Of a stretch of 40,760 bases of DNA, positions 1 through 33,397 are shown one piece after another (positions within the stretch are counted from its first letter, which is position 1; each line of letters opens with the position of its first letter). The notes beneath the pieces were generated by a model. It was not told where the DNA came from. It did no database searches and saw only the letters and a program-made list of their open reading frames with translations. The DNA comes from Lachnospiraceae bacterium (lineage in GTDB: Bacteria > Bacillota > Clostridia > Lachnospirales > Lachnospiraceae). The stretch spans positions 1 through 40,760 of the forward strand of contig JAAWEK010000028.1 of assembly GCA_022794265.1 (NCBI GenBank), written 5' to 3'. The position numbers and the translations under genes are program-made.

Positions 1-184
1 GAATGTGACTACGAAAGACAGATTGCAAGTTCTTAGTGTTCTGCTAAGGTTCCAGCTATTTTCTGACACGAGGTCAGAAAAAGGCGGATTTGAGGCAGGA
101 TGCCGAATATCCGCCGGTAGCGTCCGCCTTCGAATATCTTTTACAGAACACTTAGAACTTTCATCTGTCTGAAGTGGAACATTC
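1..184. repeat. Long imperfect inverted repeat (about 184 bp), possible MITE or structured element
   Basis: The two ends are complementary in blocks. GAATGT (1-6) pairs with ACATTC (179-184). AGACAGAT (17-24) pairs with ATCTGTCT (163-170). A 17-base arm at 27-43 pairs with 144-160 with one mismatch. Inside are a perfect 9-bp stem with a 5-base loop (59-81) and a GGCGGAT/ATCCGCC stem (83-89 with 108-114). No ORF with a ribosome binding site lies inside. The element begins exactly at the window edge, so it may extend further left. It could be a miniature inverted-repeat element, an intergenic hairpin of an interspersed family, or a terminator/structured RNA of the gene to the left; I cannot decide between these. 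Confidence 0.6.
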
Positions 185-1119: not shown

Positions 1120-2295
1120 ATGAAAGAATTAGAATTAAAATACGGATGTAATCCTAATCAGAAACCTTCCAGAATTTATATGAATGAGGGTGAGCTGCCG
1201 ATTCAGGTGCTGAACGGAAAGCCGGGATACATCAATTTTCTGGATGCGTTTAACGGCTGGCAGTTAGTCAGTGAATTAAAGAAGGCAACCGGACTTCCGG
1301 CAGCCACATCCTTTAAGCATGTTTCTCCGGCTGGAGCGGCAGTAGGACTTCCTCTTACCGATGTGGAGAAAAAAATATACTGGGTAGAAGATATGGAAGA
1401 ATTTACGCCCTTATCCAATGCCTATGCAAGAGCCAGAGGTGCAGACCGGATGTCCTCCTTTGGTGATTTTATATCATTATCTGATATCTGTGATGTGGCA
1501 ACGGCAAAACTGATTAAACGGGAAGTATCCGACGGCGTGATTGCACCGGGGTATGAGCCGGAGGCGTTGGAGATACTAAAAGCAAAGAAAAAAGGAAATT
1601 ACAATGTTATACAGATTCATCCGGATTATAAGCCGAATCCGATTGAACGGAAAGAAGTATTTGGTATTACATTTGAACAGGGAAGAAATGAACTTGTCAT
1701 TGATGACGATTTCCTGGGTAATCTGGTAACAGAGAATAAAGAGATTCCGGAATCAGCTAAAATTGACTTAATTATTTCGCTGATTACATTGAAATATACC
1801 CAGTCCAATTCCGTATGTTTTGCCAAAGGCGGACAAGCCATCGGTATTGGAGCGGGACAGCAGTCCAGAATCCACTGTACGAGACTGGCAGGTTCCAAGG
1901 CGGATAACTGGTTCTTGCGCCAGTCTCCGAAGGTACTGGGATTACAGTTTGTGGATAGCATTGGACGGGCAGACAGGGACAATGCCATTGATTTATATAT
2001 TGGTGAAGATTACATGGATGTATTGGCAGATGGCGCATGGGAACATATTTTTAAGGTAAAGCCGGAAGTATTTACCAGAGAAGAAAAGAGAGCATGGCTG
2101 GACAATATGCAGGATGTGGCTTTGGGTTCCGATGCCTTCTTCCCGTTTGGAGACAATATTGAGCGGGCCCATAAGAGCGGTGTGAAATATGTAGCACAGC
2201 CGGGCGGCTCTATCCGTGATGACAATGTCATTGAGACGTGTAATAAATATAATATGGCAATGTGCTTTACAGGATTGCGTTTATTCCATCATTAA
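1120..2295 (+). CDS. AICAR transformylase (PurH transformylase domain only)
   Basis: A 391-residue phosphoribosylaminoimidazolecarboxamide formyltransferase. It transfers a formyl group from 10-formyltetrahydrofolate to AICAR, giving FAICAR. It matches the transformylase half of PurH: LKYGCNPNQKP near the N-terminus, SFKHVSPAGAAVG, DRMSSFGDFI, the KYTQSNSVCFAKGGQAIGIGAGQ-type nucleotide-binding region and a C-terminal QPGGSIRDD motif. The inosinicase (MGS-like) half is absent, which explains the separate cyclohydrolase upstream. The frame is open from a GTG at 1081, but the ATG at 1120 has AGAGG 8-9 bases upstream and gives the usual length for this short family. It follows the cyclohydrolase gene directly. 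Confidence 0.88.
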   Translation: MKELELKYGCNPNQKPSRIYMNEGELPIQVLNGKPGYINFLDAFNGWQLVSELKKATGLPAATSFKHVSPAGAAVGLPLTDVEKKIYWVEDMEEFTPLSNAYARARGADRMSSFGDFISLSDICDVATAKLIKREVSDGVIAPGYEPEALEILKAKKKGNYNVIQIHPDYKPNPIERKEVFGITFEQGRNELVIDDDFLGNLVTENKEIPESAKIDLIISLITLKYTQSNSVCFAKGGQAIGIGAGQQSRIHCTRLAGSKADNWFLRQSPKVLGLQFVDSIGRADRDNAIDLYIGEDYMDVLADGAWEHIFKVKPEVFTREEKRAWLDNMQDVALGSDAFFPFGDNIERAHKSGVKYVAQPGGSIRDDNVIETCNKYNMAMCFTGLRLFHH

Positions 2296-2361
2296 TTATA
2301 TCTTAGTTTGTATGAATGTCCGGGAAAGGATTCAAACAAAAAAACAGGAGGAGCAGTTTTA

Positions 2362-3570
2362 ATGGAAAAGATTAAAATGACTACGCCATTGGTGGAGATG
2401 GATGGCGACGAAATGACAAGAATATTGTGGAAGATGATAAAGGATGAGTTGTTGCTGCCTTTTATCGATTTGAATACGGAATATTATGATTTGGGACTGG
2501 AGCATAGAAATGCTACGGATGATAAGGTTACGGTGGAATCTGCAGAAGCAACGAAAAAATATGGTGTAGCAGTTAAATGTGCCACTATAACTCCAAATGC
2601 AGCGAGAATGACAGAGTATAATTTAAAGGAAATGTGGAAGAGTCCCAACGGAACCATTCGTGCTATCTTAGACGGAACCGTATTCCGGACACCAATTATT
2701 GTAAAGGGAATCGAACCTTGTGTGAAGAACTGGAAGAAACCGATTACCATTGCCAGACATGCCTATGGTGATGTATATAAGGCAACGGAAATGAAAGTTG
2801 CAGGAGCAGGAAAAGCAGAATTGGTATTTACCGATGAAAACGGAAAGGAAACAAGGGAGTTAATCCATGAATTTAAAGGCGCCGGTGTCATTCAGGGACA
2901 GCACAACCTGAATAACTCCATAGAAAGCTTTGCACGAAGCTGCTTTACTTATGCTTTGGCATCAAAGCAGGACTTATGGTTTGCCACAAAGGATACCATT
3001 TCAAAAAAATATGACCACACCTTTAAGGATGTTTTTAATGAAATATTTGAGGCAGAATATGCGGATAAATTTAAAGAAACCGGCATAGAATATTTCTATA
3101 CACTGATAGATGATGCAGTTGCCCGCGTGATGAAGTCGGAAGGCGGATATATCTGGGCTTGCAAAAACTATGATGGTGATGTAATGAGTGATATGGTATC
3201 TTCCGCATTTGGTTCTCTTGCCATGATGACTTCCGTACTGGTATCCCCGGACGGATATTATGAGTATGAAGCGGCTCACGGTACCGTACAGAGACATTAT
3301 TACAAACATCTGAAAGGGGAGGAAACTTCCACAAATTCAGTGGCTACGATTTTTGCATGGACGGGAGCATTAAGAAAACGCGGAGAATTAGATGGAAATA
3401 CGGCATTATCAGAATTTGCCGACAAGTTGGAACAGGCCTGTATTAAGACCATAGAAGAGGGCAAAATGACCAAAGACCTTGCGTTGATTACAACAAATCC
3501 AAATCCTGCTGTTTTAAGCAGTCAGGACTTTATTCGGGCAGTCAGAGCAACATTACAGGAGATGGTATAA
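2362..3570 (+). CDS. icd: NADP-type isocitrate dehydrogenase
   Basis: A 402-residue isocitrate dehydrogenase that oxidatively decarboxylates isocitrate to 2-oxoglutarate. It is of the eukaryote-like homodimeric type: [11 protein letters not shown] near the N-terminus, the [16 protein letters not shown] substrate-binding segment, the IDDAVAR metal/substrate aspartates and [11 protein letters not shown] in the cofactor region. The frame is open from 2308, but the ATG at 2362 is preceded by AGGAGG with good spacing and gives the usual family length. In an anaerobe the product mainly supplies glutamate. It sits between the purine genes and the DUF1653 gene on the same strand, and no promoter was seen in the 66-bp gap. 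Confidence 0.92.
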
Positions 3571-3576
3571 GTATAA

Positions 3577-4245
3577 ATGGCAGATAACAGGAGAGTCCTG
3601 CGTCCGGGACAGATTTATAGGCATTTTAAAGGAAAATTATATCAGATTATCACTGTGGCAGTTCATTCCGAAACAGGAGAAGAGCTGGTGATTTATCAGA
3701 AACTGTATGAAGATTTCAGGGTTCATGCCAGACCATTGGATATGTTCCTAAGTGAAGTAGACCGCAGAAAATATCCGAGAGCGAGACAGAGATATCGCTT
3801 TGAACTACTTTACGAGCCGGAATTTCTAGAAAAACAGGATTCCTTTTCGAAAAAAGAAACTGGGATGGAAGCCGGATTAATGGACGATAAGAAGATTGTA
3901 CAGACTGACGATAGCAGGTTAAGTGCCGGAAATCCGGTAACGGTTGCCGAAAAAGAGCAGAAGTATGCAGAACCTCAAGGGATATGGGAATCCGATACGA
4001 ATATCAATGAAAATGAACAGCAAGGAGCCAATCCCTGTCTGTTGCAGTTTTTAGATGCCGATACGTTTGAAGAAAAGAAGAATGTATTGGTCAGCATTAA
4101 AAATCGTATGACGGACCGCCTGATAGACGATATTGCAGCGGCACTGGATGTGACAGTGGACGAGGGAGAACTGGAAACCAGATACAATAGTTTAATGAAC
4201 TGTGTGGAAACCAGAAGAAAATTTGAATGCAACCGGTTTCGATAG
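3577..4245 (+). CDS. DUF1653 domain protein
   Basis: A 222-residue protein whose first 75 residues form a DUF1653 domain: a PGQIYRHFKGKLYQI start, a YEDFRVHARPLDMFLSEVD segment and RYRFELL. This small beta-rich domain has no established biochemical role. The rest is an acidic, low-complexity linker followed by a short helical tail containing DRLIDDIAAALDV. The start is only 6 bases after the icd stop. The nearest purine-rich sequence (AGGAG at 3557-3561) is 15 bases away, so translation may be coupled to icd. It is the last gene before a strong terminator. Function unknown. Confidence 0.75.
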   Translation: MADNRRVLRPGQIYRHFKGKLYQIITVAVHSETGEELVIYQKLYEDFRVHARPLDMFLSEVDRRKYPRARQRYRFELLYEPEFLEKQDSFSKKETGMEAGLMDDKKIVQTDDSRLSAGNPVTVAEKEQKYAEPQGIWESDTNINENEQQGANPCLLQFLDADTFEEKKNVLVSIKNRMTDRLIDDIAAALDVTVDEGELETRYNSLMNCVETRRKFECNRFR

Positions 4246-26515: not shown

Positions 26516-26544
26516 CCGGCCATGGAAATGGTTCGGAGTTTTTA
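26516..26544 (+). terminator. Terminator of the CapA-like gene
   Basis: CCGGCCAT (26516-26523) and ATGGTTCGG (26528-26536) form a stem with wobbles and one bulge, followed by AGTTTTTA. It sits at the convergent junction with the RNA-repair operon. Confidence 0.5.
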
Positions 26545-27312
26545 TGTTATACTTTTTATGATTGATAGAAACATCCGGTTTAATTCTTCATAACCGGAAG
26601 AAGTTTCCTGTTTCAGAAAAGGAAGGGAATCGGGAAGTTCCTTTAGATTTCTGTCTATATACCGGTTTAAATCTTCAATTTGCGGGCAAAGCTCCAGTTC
26701 CGGCGAATGGATTTTTAAATCCAGCAGTTTATGAATAACCGGTTGTAATTCCGGTTCCAGTTCAGCCTCCGCCAGAGTTTGAAAGAATACCGGCGGAGGT
26801 GAATTTTTATCCAGAATCCATTTACAGGCCAGCAGGGGACGAATAACATAGAAATATTTTTTTAGACGCACCATGTCTCCTTTCAGGCAGTTTCTGTAGT
26901 TATTGACGGCAGTATTCAGATAGTGGTGGAATCCGGCTCTTGGAGAAAAATATTCACAAATCAACGGTTTTAACTGATTCCATTCCTCTGTACAACGATA
27001 GACAATGGGAGAATCCGCCCATTCAAACAATGTGGGATTGGATCCTTTTAACAGCCGCAGAGCTTTCTGCAGATCCCAGCCGTTGATATCCAGCGTATCG
27101 TCTAACTGCCATTCGATGACATCTCTGGTTTTTTCTAATTTCAGGTAAAATTCCGGTCGGCGCACGTAAATAAATCTTACGTCGTAATCACTGTCCGGGG
27201 AGGCAAATCCCCAGGCGCGGCTGCCGGATTCCAGAGCATAAATGATTTTTACCTGTTCCCGTTTTTCAATTTCTTTTAATTTTTCCTGAATAATCTGTTG
27301 CAATGAAAACAC
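26542..27312 (-). CDS. RlaP-type nucleotidyltransferase (RNA-repair-associated)
   Basis: A 256-residue DNA-polymerase-beta-superfamily nucleotidyltransferase of PF10127 (RlaP, named for its link to RNA-repair loci). The active site is ESGSRAWGF followed by DSDYDVRF, with metal-binding aspartates Asp42 and Asp44. The remainder is helical with NGWDLQKALRLLKGSNPTLFEW and the YFYVIRPLLACKWI segment. It lies 26 bp downstream of rtcB. In this setting it could add or prepare nucleotides at damaged RNA ends; the substrate is unknown. Confidence 0.85.
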   Translation of the reverse strand: MFSLQQIIQEKLKEIEKREQVKIIYALESGSRAWGFASPDSDYDVRFIYVRRPEFYLKLEKTRDVIEWQLDDTLDINGWDLQKALRLLKGSNPTLFEWADSPIVYRCTEEWNQLKPLICEYFSPRAGFHHYLNTAVNNYRNCLKGDMVRLKKYFYVIRPLLACKWILDKNSPPPVFFQTLAEAELEPELQPVIHKLLDLKIHSPELELCPQIEDLNRYIDRNLKELPDSLPFLKQETSSGYEELNRMFLSIIKSIT

Positions 27313-27338: not shown

Positions 27339-28562
27339 TCAGGAGCCTGCTTTAAAATTGTAAACAGGTTTGATTATTTTGATAATATCAGCAGTCGGCG
27401 TAATATTGTTTACAATATCCGCCATATTTTTATATGCCATCGGACATTCGTCCAAAGTGGAAGCGTGAATGGAAGTAGTATAAATACCTTTCATTTCTTT
27501 TTCGAATTCTTCTACCGTAAAGTTTTCTTTTGCGGCAGAGCGGCTGTAGAGCCGTCCGGCTCCGTGGGGAGCGGAGCAGTTCCAGTCTTCATTTCCTTTA
27601 CCAACACAAATCAGACTTCCGTCCCGCATATTAATGGGAATTAAAAGTTTTTCTCCTTCTTTTGCAGACACAGCGCCTTTTCGCACGATATTGCTGTCAT
27701 GGTCAATATAATTGTGGATGGTTTCAAAGTATGGAACCTCTTCCAGCTCTTTGTTCCGTAAATGTTTCAGAATGGTATCAGCAATGGTAAAGCGGTTTAT
27801 GCTTGCAAAACGCTGACATATCTTCATATCCGCCAGATAGTCGTCTCTGTATGTACCAGTGAGATAACATAAATCCTTTGGTATATCAATGTCTTTTGCT
27901 TCAAACCGGGATTTTAATTCTTTGATTGCAGTCTGTATTTCATTTTTTCTTCCGGCAGCCTTGTATTCTGCAATGATACGGTTCTGTTCCTGAAAAAGAA
28001 TATCTTTTCCCCGAAGAATCTCGTATGCCATATTCTGATGATATTCCGCAACCTGTTTACCGAGATTCCGGCTTCCGGTATGAATCACCAGATACTGGTT
28101 TCCTTCCCCGTCCCGGTCTACTTCAATAAAATGGTTACCGCCGCCTAAGGTGCCGATACTGCGCTGAATACGTTTTGTGTCCTTTAAAGCCCGGTAGCAG
28201 GTTAAATCCTGTAATTCCGGGAAACGTATGGTCCTTCCGGGATGCACCTGTTTTCCACTGGGTACATGGGTACGGATAATGGTATCCAACTCTTCAAAAT
28301 CAATGGTTTCTTTGCCAAGTTCCACAGTCAGCATACCGCAGCCGATATCTACGCCTACAATATTGGGAATTACCATGTCCCCAAGGTTAGCGGTAAATCC
28401 GATGACGCAGCCGTTTCCGGTATGAACATCGGGCATGATGCGGATTTGGCAGCCTTTTGCAAAGGGCTGACTGCATAACTGTTCAATCTGGGAGATTGCG
28501 CTGGGTTCAATTATATCTGTAAAAACAATTGCGGATGCATAAGTTCCGTTGATGGTGTTCAT
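27339..28562 (-). CDS. rtcB: RtcB RNA ligase
   Basis: A 407-residue RtcB, a GTP- and Mn-dependent ligase that joins 2',3'-cyclic-phosphate or 3'-phosphate RNA ends to 5'-OH ends. Motifs are IMPDVHTG (Asp45, His47), VGVDIGCG (Asp72 and metal Cys75), GGGNHFIE (140-147), HTGSRNLG (161-168) and PHGAGRLYSR, which carries the histidine that is guanylylated. The frame is open from 28643, but the ATG at 28562 follows AAGGAGG and gives the usual N-terminus. The 202-bp gap to the slipin gene holds a separate promoter. Confidence 0.95.
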   Translation of the reverse strand: MNTINGTYASAIVFTDIIEPSAISQIEQLCSQPFAKGCQIRIMPDVHTGNGCVIGFTANLGDMVIPNIVGVDIGCGMLTVELGKETIDFEELDTIIRTHVPSGKQVHPGRTIRFPELQDLTCYRALKDTKRIQRSIGTLGGGNHFIEVDRDGEGNQYLVIHTGSRNLGKQVAEYHQNMAYEILRGKDILFQEQNRIIAEYKAAGRKNEIQTAIKELKSRFEAKDIDIPKDLCYLTGTYRDDYLADMKICQRFASINRFTIADTILKHLRNKELEEVPYFETIHNYIDHDSNIVRKGAVSAKEGEKLLIPINMRDGSLICVGKGNEDWNCSAPHGAGRLYSRSAAKENFTVEEFEKEMKGIYTTSIHASTLDECPMAYKNMADIVNNITPTADIIKIIKPVYNFKAGS

Positions 28563-28645
28563 GGTGTTATCCTCCTTTTCATTGTGAAAGTGGTTTGTTT
28601 TTGTGGTGGTGGGCGCCTTTCGGCGGCTGTGTACTGGAAACAAAA

Positions 28646-28764: not shown

Positions 28765-29868
28765 TCAATTTGCATTTCCGCCTCGCATAATTGTATTAAG
28801 CTGTGACAGCAAATCCGCATTCCCATTTACCGATATATTTCCTACATTTTCGCAGATTCTCTCCAGATATTCCAGTTCTTTTAATTTATAAAGTGTCCGG
28901 TTTTCGTCCATTAGTTTTGCCGTGTTTAGCAGGGAGCGGGTAGATGCCACCTCTTCTCTGCGGGTGATTACATTGGCCTGGGCCCGTTTTTCGGCAACCA
29001 GTACGGAATTCATGATTTCACGGATTTCTCCCGGAAGGATGATATCCCGGATTCCGGCATCTGTGATGTCTACATAGAATTCGGCAGCTTTCCGTTTTAG
29101 CTTTTCAAATACCTGTGCAGAGATTTCATCTTTATTTTCCAGCAGTTCGTCAATGGTATAACGGCCGGTGTATTCCCGAAGTGCAAGCTGTGCCGCCAGA
29201 TGAAGCTGTTCCTCGTAATCATCTATTTCCGTCAGGACTTTGGTATAGTCTGTTATCTTATAATTGCAGACAAAATTTATTCGAAGGGATACTTTGTCTT
29301 TGGACAGGATTTCCTGACCAGTAATGGTAAGCCGGGTTAAACGGGTATCCACGTAATCGGAAGTTACATTTGTTTTGTACTGCCAGAAGTAGTAGATACC
29401 GGAATCCAGCAGCCGCACCAGACGTTTATTGTAGTAGAGCCGGGCTTTCATGTATTCGGCAACTTCAACTTTGGTGTATAAATGTGCAGGAATCCGTGGA
29501 AACATAAACTTCGGTATTTCGTTAGCACTTTCCGGTTCTGTCATATTCATCCGGGTAAAAGTATGTTTATCATAAACCGTCCAGAAGGCATATGTACCGG
29601 CTGTCAGGGCTTCCGTAAATCTGCCGTTTACAAAATGGATTGCCAGTTCTTCATCGGAAACATCAATAACCGTGGTATTTGCTGCGATGTCAGGATTTTT
29701 AAGCAGTATATCCAGAGAAGCGGTTTGGGAAGCAAGGGGCTGCTCCAGAGATACCAGTTCTATCTTTTTTTCGCCGAAGGTACGGTATTTACCGGCGTTT
29801 AATAATGTTATAAGTTTACCATTATGAAAGAGAAGTCCTCTTTGATTTTCTGTGATAATTGTTTTCAT
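28765..29868 (-). CDS. Slipin / SPFH (band 7) family protein
   Basis: A 367-residue SPFH-domain protein of the slipin type seen beside rtcB in many bacteria. The region about 190-320 contains the SPFH core: TRLTRLTITGQEILSKDKVSLR, VCNYKITD, LALREYTGRYTIDELL, and the DAGIRDIILPGEIREIMNSVLVAEKRAQA motif typical of the family. The N-terminal 140 residues are an extra beta-rich part, and no obvious transmembrane helix is seen. AAAGGAGG lies 8 bases before the ATG at 29868; upstream in-frame codons to 29925 lack one. It may form membrane- or complex-organising oligomers; its role in RNA repair is not established. Confidence 0.85.
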   Translation of the reverse strand: MKTIITENQRGLLFHNGKLITLLNAGKYRTFGEKKIELVSLEQPLASQTASLDILLKNPDIAANTTVIDVSDEELAIHFVNGRFTEALTAGTYAFWTVYDKHTFTRMNMTEPESANEIPKFMFPRIPAHLYTKVEVAEYMKARLYYNKRLVRLLDSGIYYFWQYKTNVTSDYVDTRLTRLTITGQEILSKDKVSLRINFVCNYKITDYTKVLTEIDDYEEQLHLAAQLALREYTGRYTIDELLENKDEISAQVFEKLKRKAAEFYVDITDAGIRDIILPGEIREIMNSVLVAEKRAQANVITRREEVASTRSLLNTAKLMDENRTLYKLKELEYLERICENVGNISVNGNADLLSQLNTIMRGGNAN

Positions 29869-29915: not shown

Positions 29916-30090
29916 GCCGAAGCATTAAGTTTTACTTCGGCATAAGCGGAAGCATTGCTCTGGCTTATGAAGAAATAAAACGGTATCCTTTTCGGGCAGG
30001 GCATTTGCTGCATTGTTACGGAAGCATCGTATCAGACACCGGGTAACCGGAAAATGGCTGTTTTAATTTTGATTGTGTCCCTAACACAAT
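29916..30090 (-). other. Hairpin-rich leader between the tRNA-like RNA and the slipin gene
   Basis: No ORF is seen here. Stems are a 7-bp GCCGAAG/CTTCGGC (29916-29941), a compound hairpin with 7-bp CATAAGC/GCTTATG arms (29941-29969), a 5-bp GTTAC/GTAAC arm (30015-30047) and a perfect 7-bp ATTGTGT/ACACAAT with a 5-base loop (30072-30090). A nonamer ATGCTTCSG (minus strand) recurs at 29917-29925, 29947-29955 and 30019-30027. This could be part of the same RNA, an attenuator or RNA-processing sites. Confidence 0.5.
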
Positions 30091-30129
30091 GGCATAAAGC
30101 CAAAAACCAAAGCCACTTGGCCGGAAGGA

Positions 30130-30195
30130 TAATCCGGGCAGGATTCGAACCTGCGATGTAAAACGTTTTAGCATACACTTTGGTATTACCGGATG
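30130..30195 (-). ncRNA. tRNA-like RNA of the rtcB locus
   Basis: Reading the minus strand from 30195: an acceptor-like strand CATCCGG, TA, a D-arm-like hairpin ATAC-CAAAGT-GTAT (30186-30173), then an 18-base segment. A canonical T-arm follows, GCAGG-TTCGAAT-CCTGC (30154-30138), then CCGGATT (30137-30131) pairing with the first strand at six of seven positions, and A as discriminator. The anticodon arm is replaced by a short palindrome, TAAA-ACGT-TTTA, so there is no 7-base anticodon loop. No CCA is encoded. Total is 66 nt against about 74-76 for tRNA. It lies in a 427-bp gene-free gap inside an RNA-repair locus, behind its own promoter. Confidence 0.65.
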
Positions 30196-30246: not shown

Positions 30247-30275
30247 ATTGTAATGGAAAATAGTGGAATAATCAC
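30247..30275 (-). promoter_or_regulatory. Promoter of the tRNA-like RNA / slipin unit
   Basis: Minus-strand -10 TACAAT (30247-30252) with a weak -35 GTGATT (30270-30275) at 17-base spacing. The predicted start is near 30240, exactly where the pairing segment TGTAAAAC begins. It lies directly downstream of the WYL-operon terminator. Confidence 0.5.
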
Positions 30276-30278
30276 GGA

Positions 30279-30318
30279 AAAAAAGTTGCGAACTCTTATT
30301 TTGGTCCGCAACTTTTTT
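30279..30318 (-). terminator. Intrinsic terminator of the WYL operon
   Basis: A perfect 12-bp inverted repeat (30279-30290 with 30307-30318) has GTTGCG/CGCAAC as its GC part and A/T-runs on both sides. On the minus strand the second arm runs into seven Ts. It overlaps the last codons of the distal WYL gene. The symmetrical A/T-runs could make it work in both directions. Confidence 0.8.
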
Positions 30319-31222
30319 GTTGAATGAGCCGTTCTTTTATTAATTCAATAAATGAATCCGGCTCTGTGATTTTGATGAATGGCCCGAAGGACAGAACACG
30401 GATAACCAGTTCGGTTTCATCCTCCCGGTTATAACGGATTATAATCTGATAACGGTCGTCGGATAAACGTCTGGCTTCTTTTTCAAAGTGGGCAAAATGC
30501 AGCATAACACGTTCTAAGGCATTCCGCCGGTCCTCCAGCTCCAGTATAAAGTGACTGGAATTGGCTTTGGATATATGGTTTCGAATATCAGCCTCTTCTG
30601 TTTGTAATTCACAGGTTTCTATACGTCCTACATTTATGATATCCGTAAACCGGCATCCGCCAATGAGCAGCCGGAATTTATCGTCTTTTTCCGAGTATTC
30701 CAGCCGGTAGGGGGAGCAGAAAAAGGTACGGTGTATGCCTTTTTTACCCAGATAGCTGACTTTTATTTTTTTGTGTGTCCGAAGGGCGGTTAATATGGTA
30801 TGGAATATATTGATATAATGTATATCCTCATAGGGGTCTCCATCTTCATATTGATCAAAGTTTACATAATCCGATGGTGTAAACAGCGGCGGTATATCCG
30901 TTGCTGCTATTTTCATCAGAAATGCATATTCCTGCTGAAACAGCCGGATACGTGAATCCAGACTGACGGCTTTCAGCCAGCGCAGTTCCAATGTGGACAA
31001 TGGCAGCGTGGGAATATGTTTCAACGGGGTCTGCAGGGTGGAATCCAATAACTGCCAGCGTTCCTGTTCCAGAGCCGGCAAAATCGTGAGAAAGCTTTCT
31101 GAAAAGGTATTTTGGGCAATGATTTCTTTCATTCTGGCTTCCGTTAATGTTCCGTTGATGGCGGAAGACAGTATTCTGGCTACTGCATGGTAATAGCAGC
31201 CGTATATTTCATGAAACAACAT
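30296..31222 (-). CDS. WYL-domain regulator (distal)
   Basis: A 308-residue protein of the WYL type. A helical N-terminal part (1-130) precedes a beta-rich WYL-like domain (about 145-225: THKKIKVSYLGKKGIHRTFFCSPYRLEYSEKDDKFRLLIGG) and a WCX-like C-terminal extension with VMLHFAHFEKEARRLSDDRYQIIIRYNREDETELVIRVLSFGP. The canonical W-Y-L triplet is not obvious, and I see no clear HTH at the N-terminus, so it may be a ligand-sensing partner rather than a DNA binder. Its start overlaps the preceding WYL gene by one base (TAATG). WYL domains commonly bind nucleic-acid ligands and switch on repair or defence genes. Confidence 0.75.
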   Translation of the reverse strand: MLFHEIYGCYYHAVARILSSAINGTLTEARMKEIIAQNTFSESFLTILPALEQERWQLLDSTLQTPLKHIPTLPLSTLELRWLKAVSLDSRIRLFQQEYAFLMKIAATDIPPLFTPSDYVNFDQYEDGDPYEDIHYINIFHTILTALRTHKKIKVSYLGKKGIHRTFFCSPYRLEYSEKDDKFRLLIGGCRFTDIINVGRIETCELQTEEADIRNHISKANSSHFILELEDRRNALERVMLHFAHFEKEARRLSDDRYQIIIRYNREDETELVIRVLSFGPFIKITEPDSFIELIKERLIQQKSCGPK

Positions 31223-32496
31223 TAGCAGTTACCTCCGATATTATAGAGCTGATACATTTCTTCCAGGTCCTTTCGGAATTGGTTTTCAATGGTACGGTTG
31301 GAAAAATCCATAGAAGCAATACGGCAGATAAAGGTCCGAATCCAGGGAATCATTTCACCGGTATCGAAGACATCTGCTGTAAAGCGGCAGGTATGTTCGT
31401 CCAGGCGTTCCACGGTGCCACAGCGTTTCTCACGCTTCAGACGCTGATATATGTATTCTTCACTGGCATCTATGCGAAGGGTAAATTCTACATGTTCCAG
31501 CCGGAATTCTTTCATTTTTTCATATCCGTTGGAAATTTCCAGGGATACGTTACAGGAAATTCCCCACATATGGGATTCTATCTGATGAAGGATTTCCCGC
31601 AGGCGGTCAAAGTCGGGGGAAGGTTCCTGAAGCTGTACAACTGAGATATAGTCCAGACGGTAGGATTTCATACAATGAAGTTCCAGATTGTAGGACATGA
31701 GATAGCAGCGCCCGCTTTGGACACCGATGAATATCTTAAGGGGAATTACCATAAATTCCCTGTGATAATTGGTACGACGGGAATAATTGGTAATGGTCAC
31801 ACAGCGTTTTTCGCTGATTGCCTCAAATAACCGGCAAAGAATTTCGCTTTCCAGTGCATGGGTGATATAATGATGTTTGAAAGTAAAATATTCCCTGTGA
31901 ATTTCTGTCTTATCCAGCAGGAAGCTGCCGATTACTCCGCAGGGAGCCGTTTCAGAGAAGAACTCCAGCATATCGGTTAAGGGAGAGATTTCCCATTGTC
32001 CGGTGCGTCTGTATAGCATTTGGCGCCCCTGTCTGCTGGTTGTCAGCAGACCCAGCTCTGTATATTCTTTTAATTTTTTCCGAACAGTGGATGTATCAAA
32101 GAACATGGGACTGGAAAATCTGTAAAGATATTCGTTGTCAATTTTATCTGTGATTTCATCAATGGAAAGCTGCAGTTCCGGTGTATATAGAATATCGAAC
32201 AGAATAAAGTGCAGAGTGATATCTCCGTCCGTAAAGCTTTTGGTTTTTAAGGCTTTGTAGAGGGGATTGTGAATGGAGTTTCTGCTGTCAATAGACAGAA
32301 ATACATTTTTTCCAGTTCCGGTCTGATGAAATTCCATAAAATCACCCAGATAGCTTTCAATCCGCCGCCGCTCATTATCATAGGAGCGGGCACTTTTTTT
32401 ATCAAATTCTTCCCGGCTTTTAAATCCATACACATAGAATTCACGCATGTAGTCCCGGATACGCTGGAAATTTTTAATCAGTTCGTGGTATGCCAT
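31222..32496 (-). CDS. WYL-domain regulator (proximal)
   Basis: A 424-residue WYL regulator. A wHTH-like region (about 85-165: FDTSTVRKKLKEYTELGLLTTSRQGRQMLYRR) gives DNA binding. The WYL domain follows (about 235-305: ISEKRCVTITNYSRRTNYHREFMVIPLKIFIGVQSGRCYLMSYN), then a WCX-like tail ending DLEEMYQLYNI. The frame is open from 32583; the ATG at 32496 is chosen because AAAGGAG lies at about 7-base spacing. A 16-bp inverted repeat lies just upstream. It is probably the transcription factor controlling the RNA-repair locus. Confidence 0.8.
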   Translation of the reverse strand: MAYHELIKNFQRIRDYMREFYVYGFKSREEFDKKSARSYDNERRRIESYLGDFMEFHQTGTGKNVFLSIDSRNSIHNPLYKALKTKSFTDGDITLHFILFDILYTPELQLSIDEITDKIDNEYLYRFSSPMFFDTSTVRKKLKEYTELGLLTTSRQGRQMLYRRTGQWEISPLTDMLEFFSETAPCGVIGSFLLDKTEIHREYFTFKHHYITHALESEILCRLFEAISEKRCVTITNYSRRTNYHREFMVIPLKIFIGVQSGRCYLMSYNLELHCMKSYRLDYISVVQLQEPSPDFDRLREILHQIESHMWGISCNVSLEISNGYEKMKEFRLEHVEFTLRIDASEEYIYQRLKREKRCGTVERLDEHTCRFTADVFDTGEMIPWIRTFICRIASMDFSNRTIENQFRKDLEEMYQLYNIGGNC

Positions 32497-32519
32497 TACG
32501 CACTCCTTTCCGCACAGCA

Positions 32520-32564
32520 GGCGATTGAAAAATTCTTCCGAAAAGTTTGAATTTTTCAATCGCC
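32520..32564. promoter_or_regulatory. 16-bp perfect inverted repeat upstream of the WYL operon
   Basis: A perfect 16-base arm at 32520-32535 and its complement at 32549-32564 are separated by 13 bases. It lies between the stop of the zinc-ribbon gene and the WYL start. No T-run follows on the minus strand, so it is not a typical terminator there. A TTGAAA within the arm could serve as a -35 element, so an operator overlapping the WYL promoter is plausible. Confidence 0.55.
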
Positions 32565-32572
32565 TGTGTATG

Positions 32573-33397
32573 TCAGGCTTCAAATACGGCCTGATAAATC
32601 TGTTCTATCAAATCTTCTAAGTATGCTTCGTCCAGATTGCCATATTTAGCGGTAATCTGTTTTTTCAGATAGTCGGTACGGTTAAAATACAGGGTTCCTT
32701 CATTTTCGCTTTTCTCATAGTTGGAATCCAGTTCGTCCGCTGTTTTTACTGTAAATTCGGACAGAATACCGGCAGTCAGCTGTTCTTCTGCATCGATTTC
32801 GCCTTTTATGGTATTGGATTTTTTGTAGGCCAGGATTCCTCCGATGAGAAACACGTTAAAAAGGGTTCCCATGACGATTAGAAATAATATATTTGTGATT
32901 CCACTGTAATCAGGTCCAAAAGGAATCATGCCCATGGATTTTCTAATCAGATAGATATCTCCCAGCAATCCTGCCAGTATCAGGGTCAGGGCAGAACCGC
33001 GCAGGTCTTTGTATTTATCTGCTTTTTTTACATAATTGGCGGGGGCCTCTTCCAGTGGGGCAGAAGAAGGAAATTCTGCTTCCGGTGTATTTGCGGCTTC
33101 CTCTTTTAATTCATTGTCAAAATAAATATTTAACAGACGTTTTACACTTTGTTCATGGGTAGCATCGGTATAGATACAAAAGCTTTCTTTTTCTTCATCA
33201 TAGTGCTGTGCCACCGCATTTATTTTGGAATATTTCAGGTATTCGGTTAGTTTTGATATGTATTCCTCATTTTTATCATAATATATGGGAACACTTAATT
33301 CAAAATCCGGCAGTTTATCGGTTAACGGACAGTTGCAGTCCGTACAAAGCGTTATGCCGTCTTCGTATTCCAATTTGCATTTTGGACAAATTGCCAT
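32573..33397 (-). CDS. Zinc-ribbon, two-TM membrane protein
   Basis: A 274-residue protein with an N-terminal zinc ribbon (CPKC at residues 4-7, CTDCNC at about 18-23) and a DUF2007-like small alpha/beta part (about 35-95, YISKLTEYLKYSKINAVAQHY). A linker leads to two membrane helices near 134-152 and 166-190, and the acidic tail ends LEDLIEQIYQAVFEA. GGAG precedes the ATG at 7 bases. It is directly upstream of the WYL genes on the same strand, 76 bp away. Function unknown; no link to RNA repair is visible. Confidence 0.7.
   Translation of the reverse strand: MAICPKCKLEYEDGITLCTDCNCPLTDKLPDFELSVPIYYDKNEEYISKLTEYLKYSKINAVAQHYDEEKESFCIYTDATHEQSVKRLLNIYFDNELKEEAANTPEAEFPSSAPLEEAPANYVKKADKYKDLRGSALTLILAGLLGDIYLIRKSMGMIPFGPDYSGITNILFLIVMGTLFNVFLIGGILAYKKSNTIKGEIDAEEQLTAGILSEFTVKTADELDSNYEKSENEGTLYFNRTDYLKKQITAKYGNLDEAYLEDLIEQIYQAVFEA

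Follow-up and report, generated by a model that had tools for sequence, protein, structure and literature searches.

The leader of a slipin-rtcB-rlaP operon in a Lachnospiraceae bacterium encodes a tRNA-like element that is very probably a conserved, rotated tRNA mimic. The window, by which we mean the whole stretch of 40,760 nucleotides analysed, holds one member of a group of RNAs with the conserved order T-arm, closed acceptor and D-arm, which is that of a rotated tRNA with its ends falling at the anticodon. This order follows from two observations: a T-arm with a directly adjoining capped hairpin is found within 800 nt upstream of slipin at 83 of 96 loci (79 of 91 without repeats, window included), and the linear acceptor stem of an ordinary tRNA occurs among these leaders at chance level. 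Besides an RtcB substrate, a toxin bait and a WYL ligand, the earlier note on this DNA had proposed a tRNA mimic that resembles Y RNAs and is linked to RtcB where Ro60 is lacking; this is the best of its ideas, and the layout, the covariation and the gene order support it. The tRNA-like element is real; the fold first drawn for it is not supported.

The element is matched by the Rfam tRNA model RF00005 at 30195-30130 of the minus strand with 24.8 bits, below the gathering score of 29, and the match lacks a large part of the anticodon arm; ARAGORN calls no tRNA. A perfect T-arm had been described, and it is present as GCAGG-UUCGAAU-CCUGC (5+7+5, 30154-30138, minus strand), the sole such T-arm on both strands of the 40,760 bases, with a stem that covaries in relatives. 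The strings CATCCGG and CCGGATT, which had been drawn as an acceptor stem, do form six of seven pairs; however, only 10 of the 79 homologous leaders, including that of the window, allow a linear acceptor, versus a mean of 10.03 with shuffled letters, and for this reason the linear tRNA fold was rejected. The D-like hairpin of the original drawing exists at 30186-30173 but overlaps a conserved GUAUGC motif by eye, and its placement 5' of the T-arm is not supported; the conserved D-arm stands 3' of the T-arm at 30120-30107. Similarly, the 12-base palindrome can be read at 30170-30159, but the comparison gives no support to the idea that it replaces an anticodon arm. Two other Rfam families (one miRNA family, one plastid family) matched weakly at the element and were taken as chance. 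A TwoAYGGAY RNA is found at window positions 10-176 (110.4 bits).

Read in the rotated order, the window copy is a unit spanning 30081-30164 on the minus strand, as delimited by a covariance model of its relatives. Directly 3' of the T-arm is a capped acceptor-like hairpin, CCGGA-UUAUCCU-UCCGG (30121-30137), followed by the D-arm-like CCAA-GUGGCU-UUGG (30107-30120), to which homologous D-arms correspond in relatives. Both the cap (CCGGA/UCCGG) and the D-arm (CCAA/UUGG) of this copy were identified in the sequence itself and through homology, and the lenient D-arm rule of the locus scan chose a shifted stem here. Farther 3' are two small hairpins, UGGC-UUUAU-GCCA and UUGUGU/ACACAA (30073-30102), at a site that is occupied by an anticodon-arm-like hairpin in many relatives. 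The mimic is flanked by the GUAUGC motif on its 5' side (30171-30178; GUAUNCC-type in many leaders, by eye) and, within the leader's 3' part, by a conserved GGAUACCG motif (29981-29988), all on the minus strand. Across many leaders GUAUNCC and GGAUACCG vary little. A possible long-range pairing of GGUAUNCC with GGAUACC is not singled out by the comparison; both strings hardly vary, and GUAUNCC/GGAUACC pairing is inconsistent among leaders. The motifs GGUGCC, GGUAUACCG and GGAUACCG are also seen in the leader of L007/L055, from which the T-arm is absent.

Within the family, 16 of 299 genomes, including that of the window, encode the slipin protein, and 80 of at least 583 slipin relatives from named genomes were examined, giving the 96 loci; five of these are repeats (L029, L042, L055, L057 and L063) and were dropped from the counts of 79 leaders and 91 loci. 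Elsewhere in the same loci, the rule for a T-arm with a cap is satisfied 15 times in 1.05 Mb on both strands, and a D-arm candidate follows the T-arm and cap in most loci under the lenient rule. Thirteen of the 96 loci have no match to the rule. The upstream DNA of L022 and L054 is too short; L068, L080 and L090 carry a T-arm 945-1000 nt upstream, outside the 800-nt limit; the T-stem of L069 has four of five pairs; and L092 has a match to the covariance model R2. Matches to a further model, R1, are found at L011, L030 and L031, the last two with the RNA farther from slipin (~2.9 kb and ~1.1 kb, respectively). L009 lies on the same contig as L030, and L007 and L055 are one locus without a T-arm. 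When 97 relatives were searched at the DNA level, the window's own genome matched, as did one other, G089, through two T-arm matches of 23 bases; the eight other genomes of the genus gave none. Tandem mimic units, each with a T-arm, a capped acceptor and a D-arm-like part by eye, are visible in L074 (3625-3792) and in L100-L103 (near 1430-1590, minus strand).

Covariation was assessed in two MAFFT alignments that were not fitted to structures, the structures being drawn from the alignments themselves. Of 79 reference sequences, left after eight second or weaker matches were dropped, 46 entered alignment A2, 20 entered A4 and 13 entered neither: L004, which is the window and was left out on purpose, and L017, L038, L043, L050, L071, L073, L079, L083, L084, L085, L091 and L093, whose caps or D-arms were odd or unclear by eye. 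The addition of L068, L080 and L090 brought A4, which represents the window's kind without the window, to 23 sequences. Type 1 (A2, n = 46, mostly Lachnospiraceae where named) shows changes on both sides at 13 of 17 pairs, a number reached by 23 of 500 shuffles, and a covariation score of 0.487 versus 0.159 shuffled and at most 0.173 when slid. Type 2 (A4, n = 23) shows both-side changes at 11 of 16 pairs, reached by 2 of 500 shuffles, and scores 0.408 versus 0.192 shuffled and at most 0.103 slid. The slid controls matter because kinship alone can lift sequences above shuffles without any structure. In type 1, pairing is seen in 96-100% of cells for the T, cap and D helices. A covarying closing stem, at most 6 bp long, is paired in 60.1% of cells in the register counted. 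The homologous capped hairpin changes on both sides at 7 of 7 pairs in A4 and at 2 of 2 counted pairs in A2. The earlier note had named a lack of compensatory changes and confinement to a single strain as what would speak against its proposal; the RNA covaries, and it precedes slipin in many genera of Clostridia.

A covariance model built from relatives with the window excluded, R2, scores 35.5 bits for the element (30164-30081; E = 3.7e-11 within the window). In the whole genome this is the best match (E = 2.6e-9), the second, at 29.9 bits, overlapping a tRNA cluster, so that the margin over the tRNA cluster of the same genome is 5.6 bits; moreover, several of the cap pairs are shown as unpaired when R2 aligns the window copy. 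The model R1 gives the window copy 23.0 bits, mainly from the T-arm according to the alignment. The margin of the window copy over tRNA background is therefore modest, and its position, its neighbours and its resemblance to L005 and L006 add support. In 20 relatives, R2 gave a match of 79.9 bits in G065 and matches of 20-36 bits in the remainder. A search of 391 genomes of the class with R1 returned a match in 306, a tally that is no count of slipin-linked RNAs because most of the R1 loci listed contain tRNAs: among those 30 loci, only L100-L104 and L114 are free of an ARAGORN tRNA.

Given such tRNA-like letters, one explanation to be considered is that the element is a decayed tRNA gene or a scar left where a mobile element inserted. 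Such insertions often target tRNA genes, and in L030 unrelated genes, phage-like by eye, occupy 1142-4001 between the RNA and slipin, where the T-arm may have served as an integration site. The compensatory changes, the conserved place upstream of slipin and the rotated order with its closed acceptor all argue against decay, and we regard this explanation as highly improbable.

The genomic setting is as had been described, with WYL genes on one side of the element and slipin-rtcB-rlaP on the other. All of these genes lie on the minus strand. The slipin, a Band-7 (SPFH) protein, is encoded at 28765-29868 (PF01145, 8.5e-30), the RtcB RNA ligase at 27339-28643 (PF01139, 4.4e-61; longest reading frame, with a provisional start) and RlaP, of an RNA-repair nucleotidyltransferase family, at 26542-27312 (PF10127, 5.8e-87). 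Upstream, a WYL-domain protein that is the likely operon regulator is encoded at 31222-32583 (PF13280, 1.9e-6) and is a neighbour in many loci; the second protein of the WYL pair (30296-31222) has no Pfam match and has homologues beside other slipin loci. Two gene orders recur. In the window type, one strand carries WYL-WYL, RNA, slipin, RtcB and, in some loci, RlaP; in the Lachnospiraceae type, divergent WYL genes are followed by a more distant RtcB, the RNA and slipin.

A promoter had been placed ahead of the element. A sigma-70 consensus scan of the window finds no promoter on the minus strand, but an operator-like string, GTTCGCAACTTTTTT (30279-30293, minus strand), stands ahead of the promoter region of the RNA-slipin-rtcB-rlaP operon, with a -10-like box TACAAT 3' of it (30247-30252, minus strand) that the generic scan missed and whose spacing was judged by eye. 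With at most two mismatches, GTTCGCAACTTTTTT occurs on the operon strand 200-2700 nt upstream of slipin at 60 of 91 loci, versus eight occurrences elsewhere in 1.32 Mb on both strands, and a -10-like box can be seen by eye 3' of it at conserved loci. The operator lies between WYL and the RNA in the window type and ~1.9 kb upstream of slipin, ahead of rtcB, in the Lachnospiraceae type. Because it stands upstream of the RNA in both operon types, the RNA is probably within the operon transcript, and the WYL proteins would be the ones to bind the operator. A similar GTTGCAAACTTTTTG followed by TATACT is visible by eye in three loci where the RNA is linked to Ro60 (L104, L132 and L138).

This arrangement raises an alternative hypothesis, namely that the mimic is a cis-acting leader whose binding of RtcB, of slipin or of a modification enzyme provides feedback on transcription or on the translation of slipin. 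The RNA stands directly upstream of slipin in both operon types and, by the operator position, inside the operon transcript; in addition, a terminator-like hairpin at 29941-29916 lies ~47 nt ahead of the slipin start. By eye, however, L005 and L006 have not retained that hairpin, the RNA is well removed from slipin in L030 and L031, and a similar RNA is found between Ro60 and RtcB in G719 and upstream of Ro60 in three genomes. The mimic may be a leader only, and on balance we consider cis regulation unlikely.

A close structural comparison for the rotated mimic is the bacterial Y RNA YrlA, whose Rfam consensus (RF02553) has the same order as the slipin-linked RNA: T-arm, capped acceptor and D-arm. 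The YrlA model matches at the same place in 10 of 13 related loci with 23.5-44.2 bits, seven of them at E < 0.01, and none of the matched loci reaches its gathering threshold of 69 bits. At E <= 1 it has no match in the window copy, nor does it match the nearest relatives, L005 and L006, or L007. Matches below ~34 bits carry little weight because the tRNA clusters of G000 and G211 give 33.6 and 33.5 bits and below-threshold matches occur in 9 of 14 control genomes; five relatives (36.8-44.2 bits) clear this tRNA-cluster background. RNAs beside clostridial Ro60 score likewise below the threshold with the YrlA model (46.5, 42.0 and 38.3 bits). YrlA also has a long basal stem joining its 5' and 3' ends; on this point the slipin-linked RNAs show the covarying closing stem of type 1 and the inconsistent GUAUNCC/GGAUACC pairing.

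The absence of a TROVE gene had been noted for the window, and it extends to the window's whole genome (PF05731). Ro60 (PF05731) is found in none of 16 and none of 39 slipin genome entries, with a positive Deinobacterium control; these 55 entries probably count one genome twice (G268 and the genome of L057). Six further genomes came from the class search, and four of them have Ro60. G517 and G719 have Ro60 and no slipin within the stretch examined. Of the four further slipin genomes, G558 and G662 have Ro60, with slipin at a separate locus, and G516 and G628 are without it. An R1 match adjoins Ro60 in G517, G558, G662 and G719 (48.7, 46.7, 40.9 and 33.7 bits over the four), lying upstream of Ro60 in the first three and between Ro60 and RtcB in G719. 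R1 scores tandem tRNA genes at up to 48.1 bits, and therefore scores alone are no proof of homology for the Ro60-linked RNAs; beyond the scores, homology is argued from their position adjoining Ro60 and from ARAGORN, which finds no tRNA in those of G517, G558 and G719. The slipin-linked RNA is thus like YrlA in its rotated order and its link to RtcB, with a similar RNA beside Ro60 in four Clostridia; it differs in that the partner gene here is slipin and that its scores stay below the gathering threshold.

We propose that a Y-RNA-like tRNA mimic is transcribed at the 5' end of the WYL-linked slipin-RtcB-RlaP operon and would belong to an RNA-repair particle as the RNA that partners slipin, a putative RNA-binding protein taking the place that Ro60 has in Y-RNA systems. 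The closed acceptor would keep the mimic uncharged, while its elbow would still dock tRNA-handling enzymes such as RtcB, modification enzymes and nucleases. Once RNA damage is sensed by the regulators, the RNA might then tether or gate these enzymes on a scaffold of oligomeric slipin, or hold damaged tRNAs there. This mechanism is tentative, and we give it somewhat less than an even chance, an estimate slightly lowered in view of the tRNA background of the YrlA matches and the two genomes that contain both systems. The case for slipin as partner rests on the conserved position and gene order, the rotated order with its compensatory changes, the R2 match in the window, the five relatives clear of the YrlA background, the shared operator-like string, the rarity of Ro60 in the genomes tested, the R1 matches beside Ro60 and the MVP-like model; counted against it are the R2 margin, the unpaired cap pairs, the missing YrlA match in the window copy, L005 and L006, the R1 scores of tandem tRNA genes, Ro60 in G558 and G662, and the 60.1% of the closing stem. 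As for slipin itself, a structure model of the L010 protein, 46% identical to the window's, suggests a possible MVP-like fold over the repeat, shoulder and cap-helix parts, and slipin is possibly vault-like; MVP, which with vault RNA makes up the vault particle, shares ~10% identity with slipin, and over the SPFH part higher Z values are obtained with stomatin and prohibitin.

Loops resembling anticodon loops in the relatives bear on a different function. The 79 leaders contain 24 seven-nucleotide CUGUNAA loops closed by stems of 4 bp or more, versus a mean of 0.18 (maximum 2) in 100 dinucleotide shuffles, and control DNA has eight in 962 kb. The third anticodon letter is C in 11, A in 6, U in 6 and G in 1; CUNNNAA loops overall number 40 versus 2.2 shuffled. 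CUGUNAA loops imitate those that carry the anticodon in the tRNAs for Asp, Tyr, Asn and His. In type 1 they stand mostly 3' of the D-arm, often with a second T-arm; outside type 1 they occur at other places and on stems of different sequence, and for this reason they are not all one inherited hairpin.

One hypothesis is that the mimic acts as a tripwire or decoy for anticodon nucleases, such that cleavage at CUGUNAA would report RNA damage or spare tRNAs and RtcB would reseal the cut. The excess of these loops on stems of different sequence speaks somewhat for a bait or sensor. Moreover, according to a passage in PMC5372726, every potentially Q-modified tRNA is cleaved by colicin E5, the cut falling between positions 34 and 35, and the GUN (queuosine-type) tRNAs imitated by the loops are this same set. 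However, by the same count a CUGUNAA loop is missing from 55 of the 79 leaders, including that of the window, and the window leader has no anticodon-type 7-nt loop whose stem reaches 4 bp. The leaders are hairpin-rich in any case (844 seven-base loops versus 546 shuffled), and about half of the 24 loops share a single position 3' of the type 1 D-arm and could descend from one hairpin. In Salmonella, according to a passage in PMC7790460, YrlA fragments were undetected while tRNAs were cut. A search for the colicin E5 domain found it in none of the 55 slipin genome entries, with an equally silent positive control. We regard such a tripwire or decoy as rather unlikely, and the broader proposal, that the widespread rotated family would serve as bait or alarm for anticodon nucleases within a WYL-linked operon of RtcB and a vault-like slipin, with RtcB resealing it, as doubtful. 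The readings of the RNA as slipin partner, as bait or sensor and as cis-acting leader are not mutually exclusive.

The association of an SPFH protein with an RNA is treated here as known. The abstract of Burroughs and Aravind (2016, NAR gkw722) reportedly names SPFH/Band-7 modules that come with a new tRNA-like molecule of their own; in that system a tRNA-like RNA is reported to partner a Band-7/MVP-like protein in RtcB systems, as here, and the window's RNA has both a Band-7 gene as neighbour and RtcB. A passage in a 2026 preprint cites the same paper for bacterial MVP homologues and ncRNAs in their operon (PMC13404743). The rotated layout, the tandem units, the Ro60-linked counterparts, the operator and the CUGUNAA loops may or may not already be in the 2016 paper. 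Among the literature matches listed, which did not include that paper, no title concerns a slipin-linked RNA, and we do not claim absence from print. The Salmonella rsr-yrlBA-rtcBA operon is likewise an RNA-repair operon with RtcB and a tRNA-mimicking RNA, but it has RtcR control and Ro60 where the present one has WYL neighbours and slipin (passages in PMC7790460). PaFlo8 is an SPFH protein inside the rtc locus of Pseudomonas aeruginosa PA14; that locus is of the RtcA/RtcR kind, and the passage on PaFlo8 mentions no RNA (PMC13086221).

The slipin-linked RNA and the bacterial Y RNAs can be placed in one structural class, and the clostridial loci described here may be meeting points of its Ro60 and slipin branches. 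The alignments, the covariance models, the operator-like string and the anticodon-like loops provide features open to test that Rfam, in the copy searched, misses at its thresholds. The anticodon-like loops point to one class of tRNA damage and are, like the rotated layout, a concrete handle on function. Finally, the findings suggest a bacterial vault-like protein with an RNA of its own, which bears on the unknown function of vaults.
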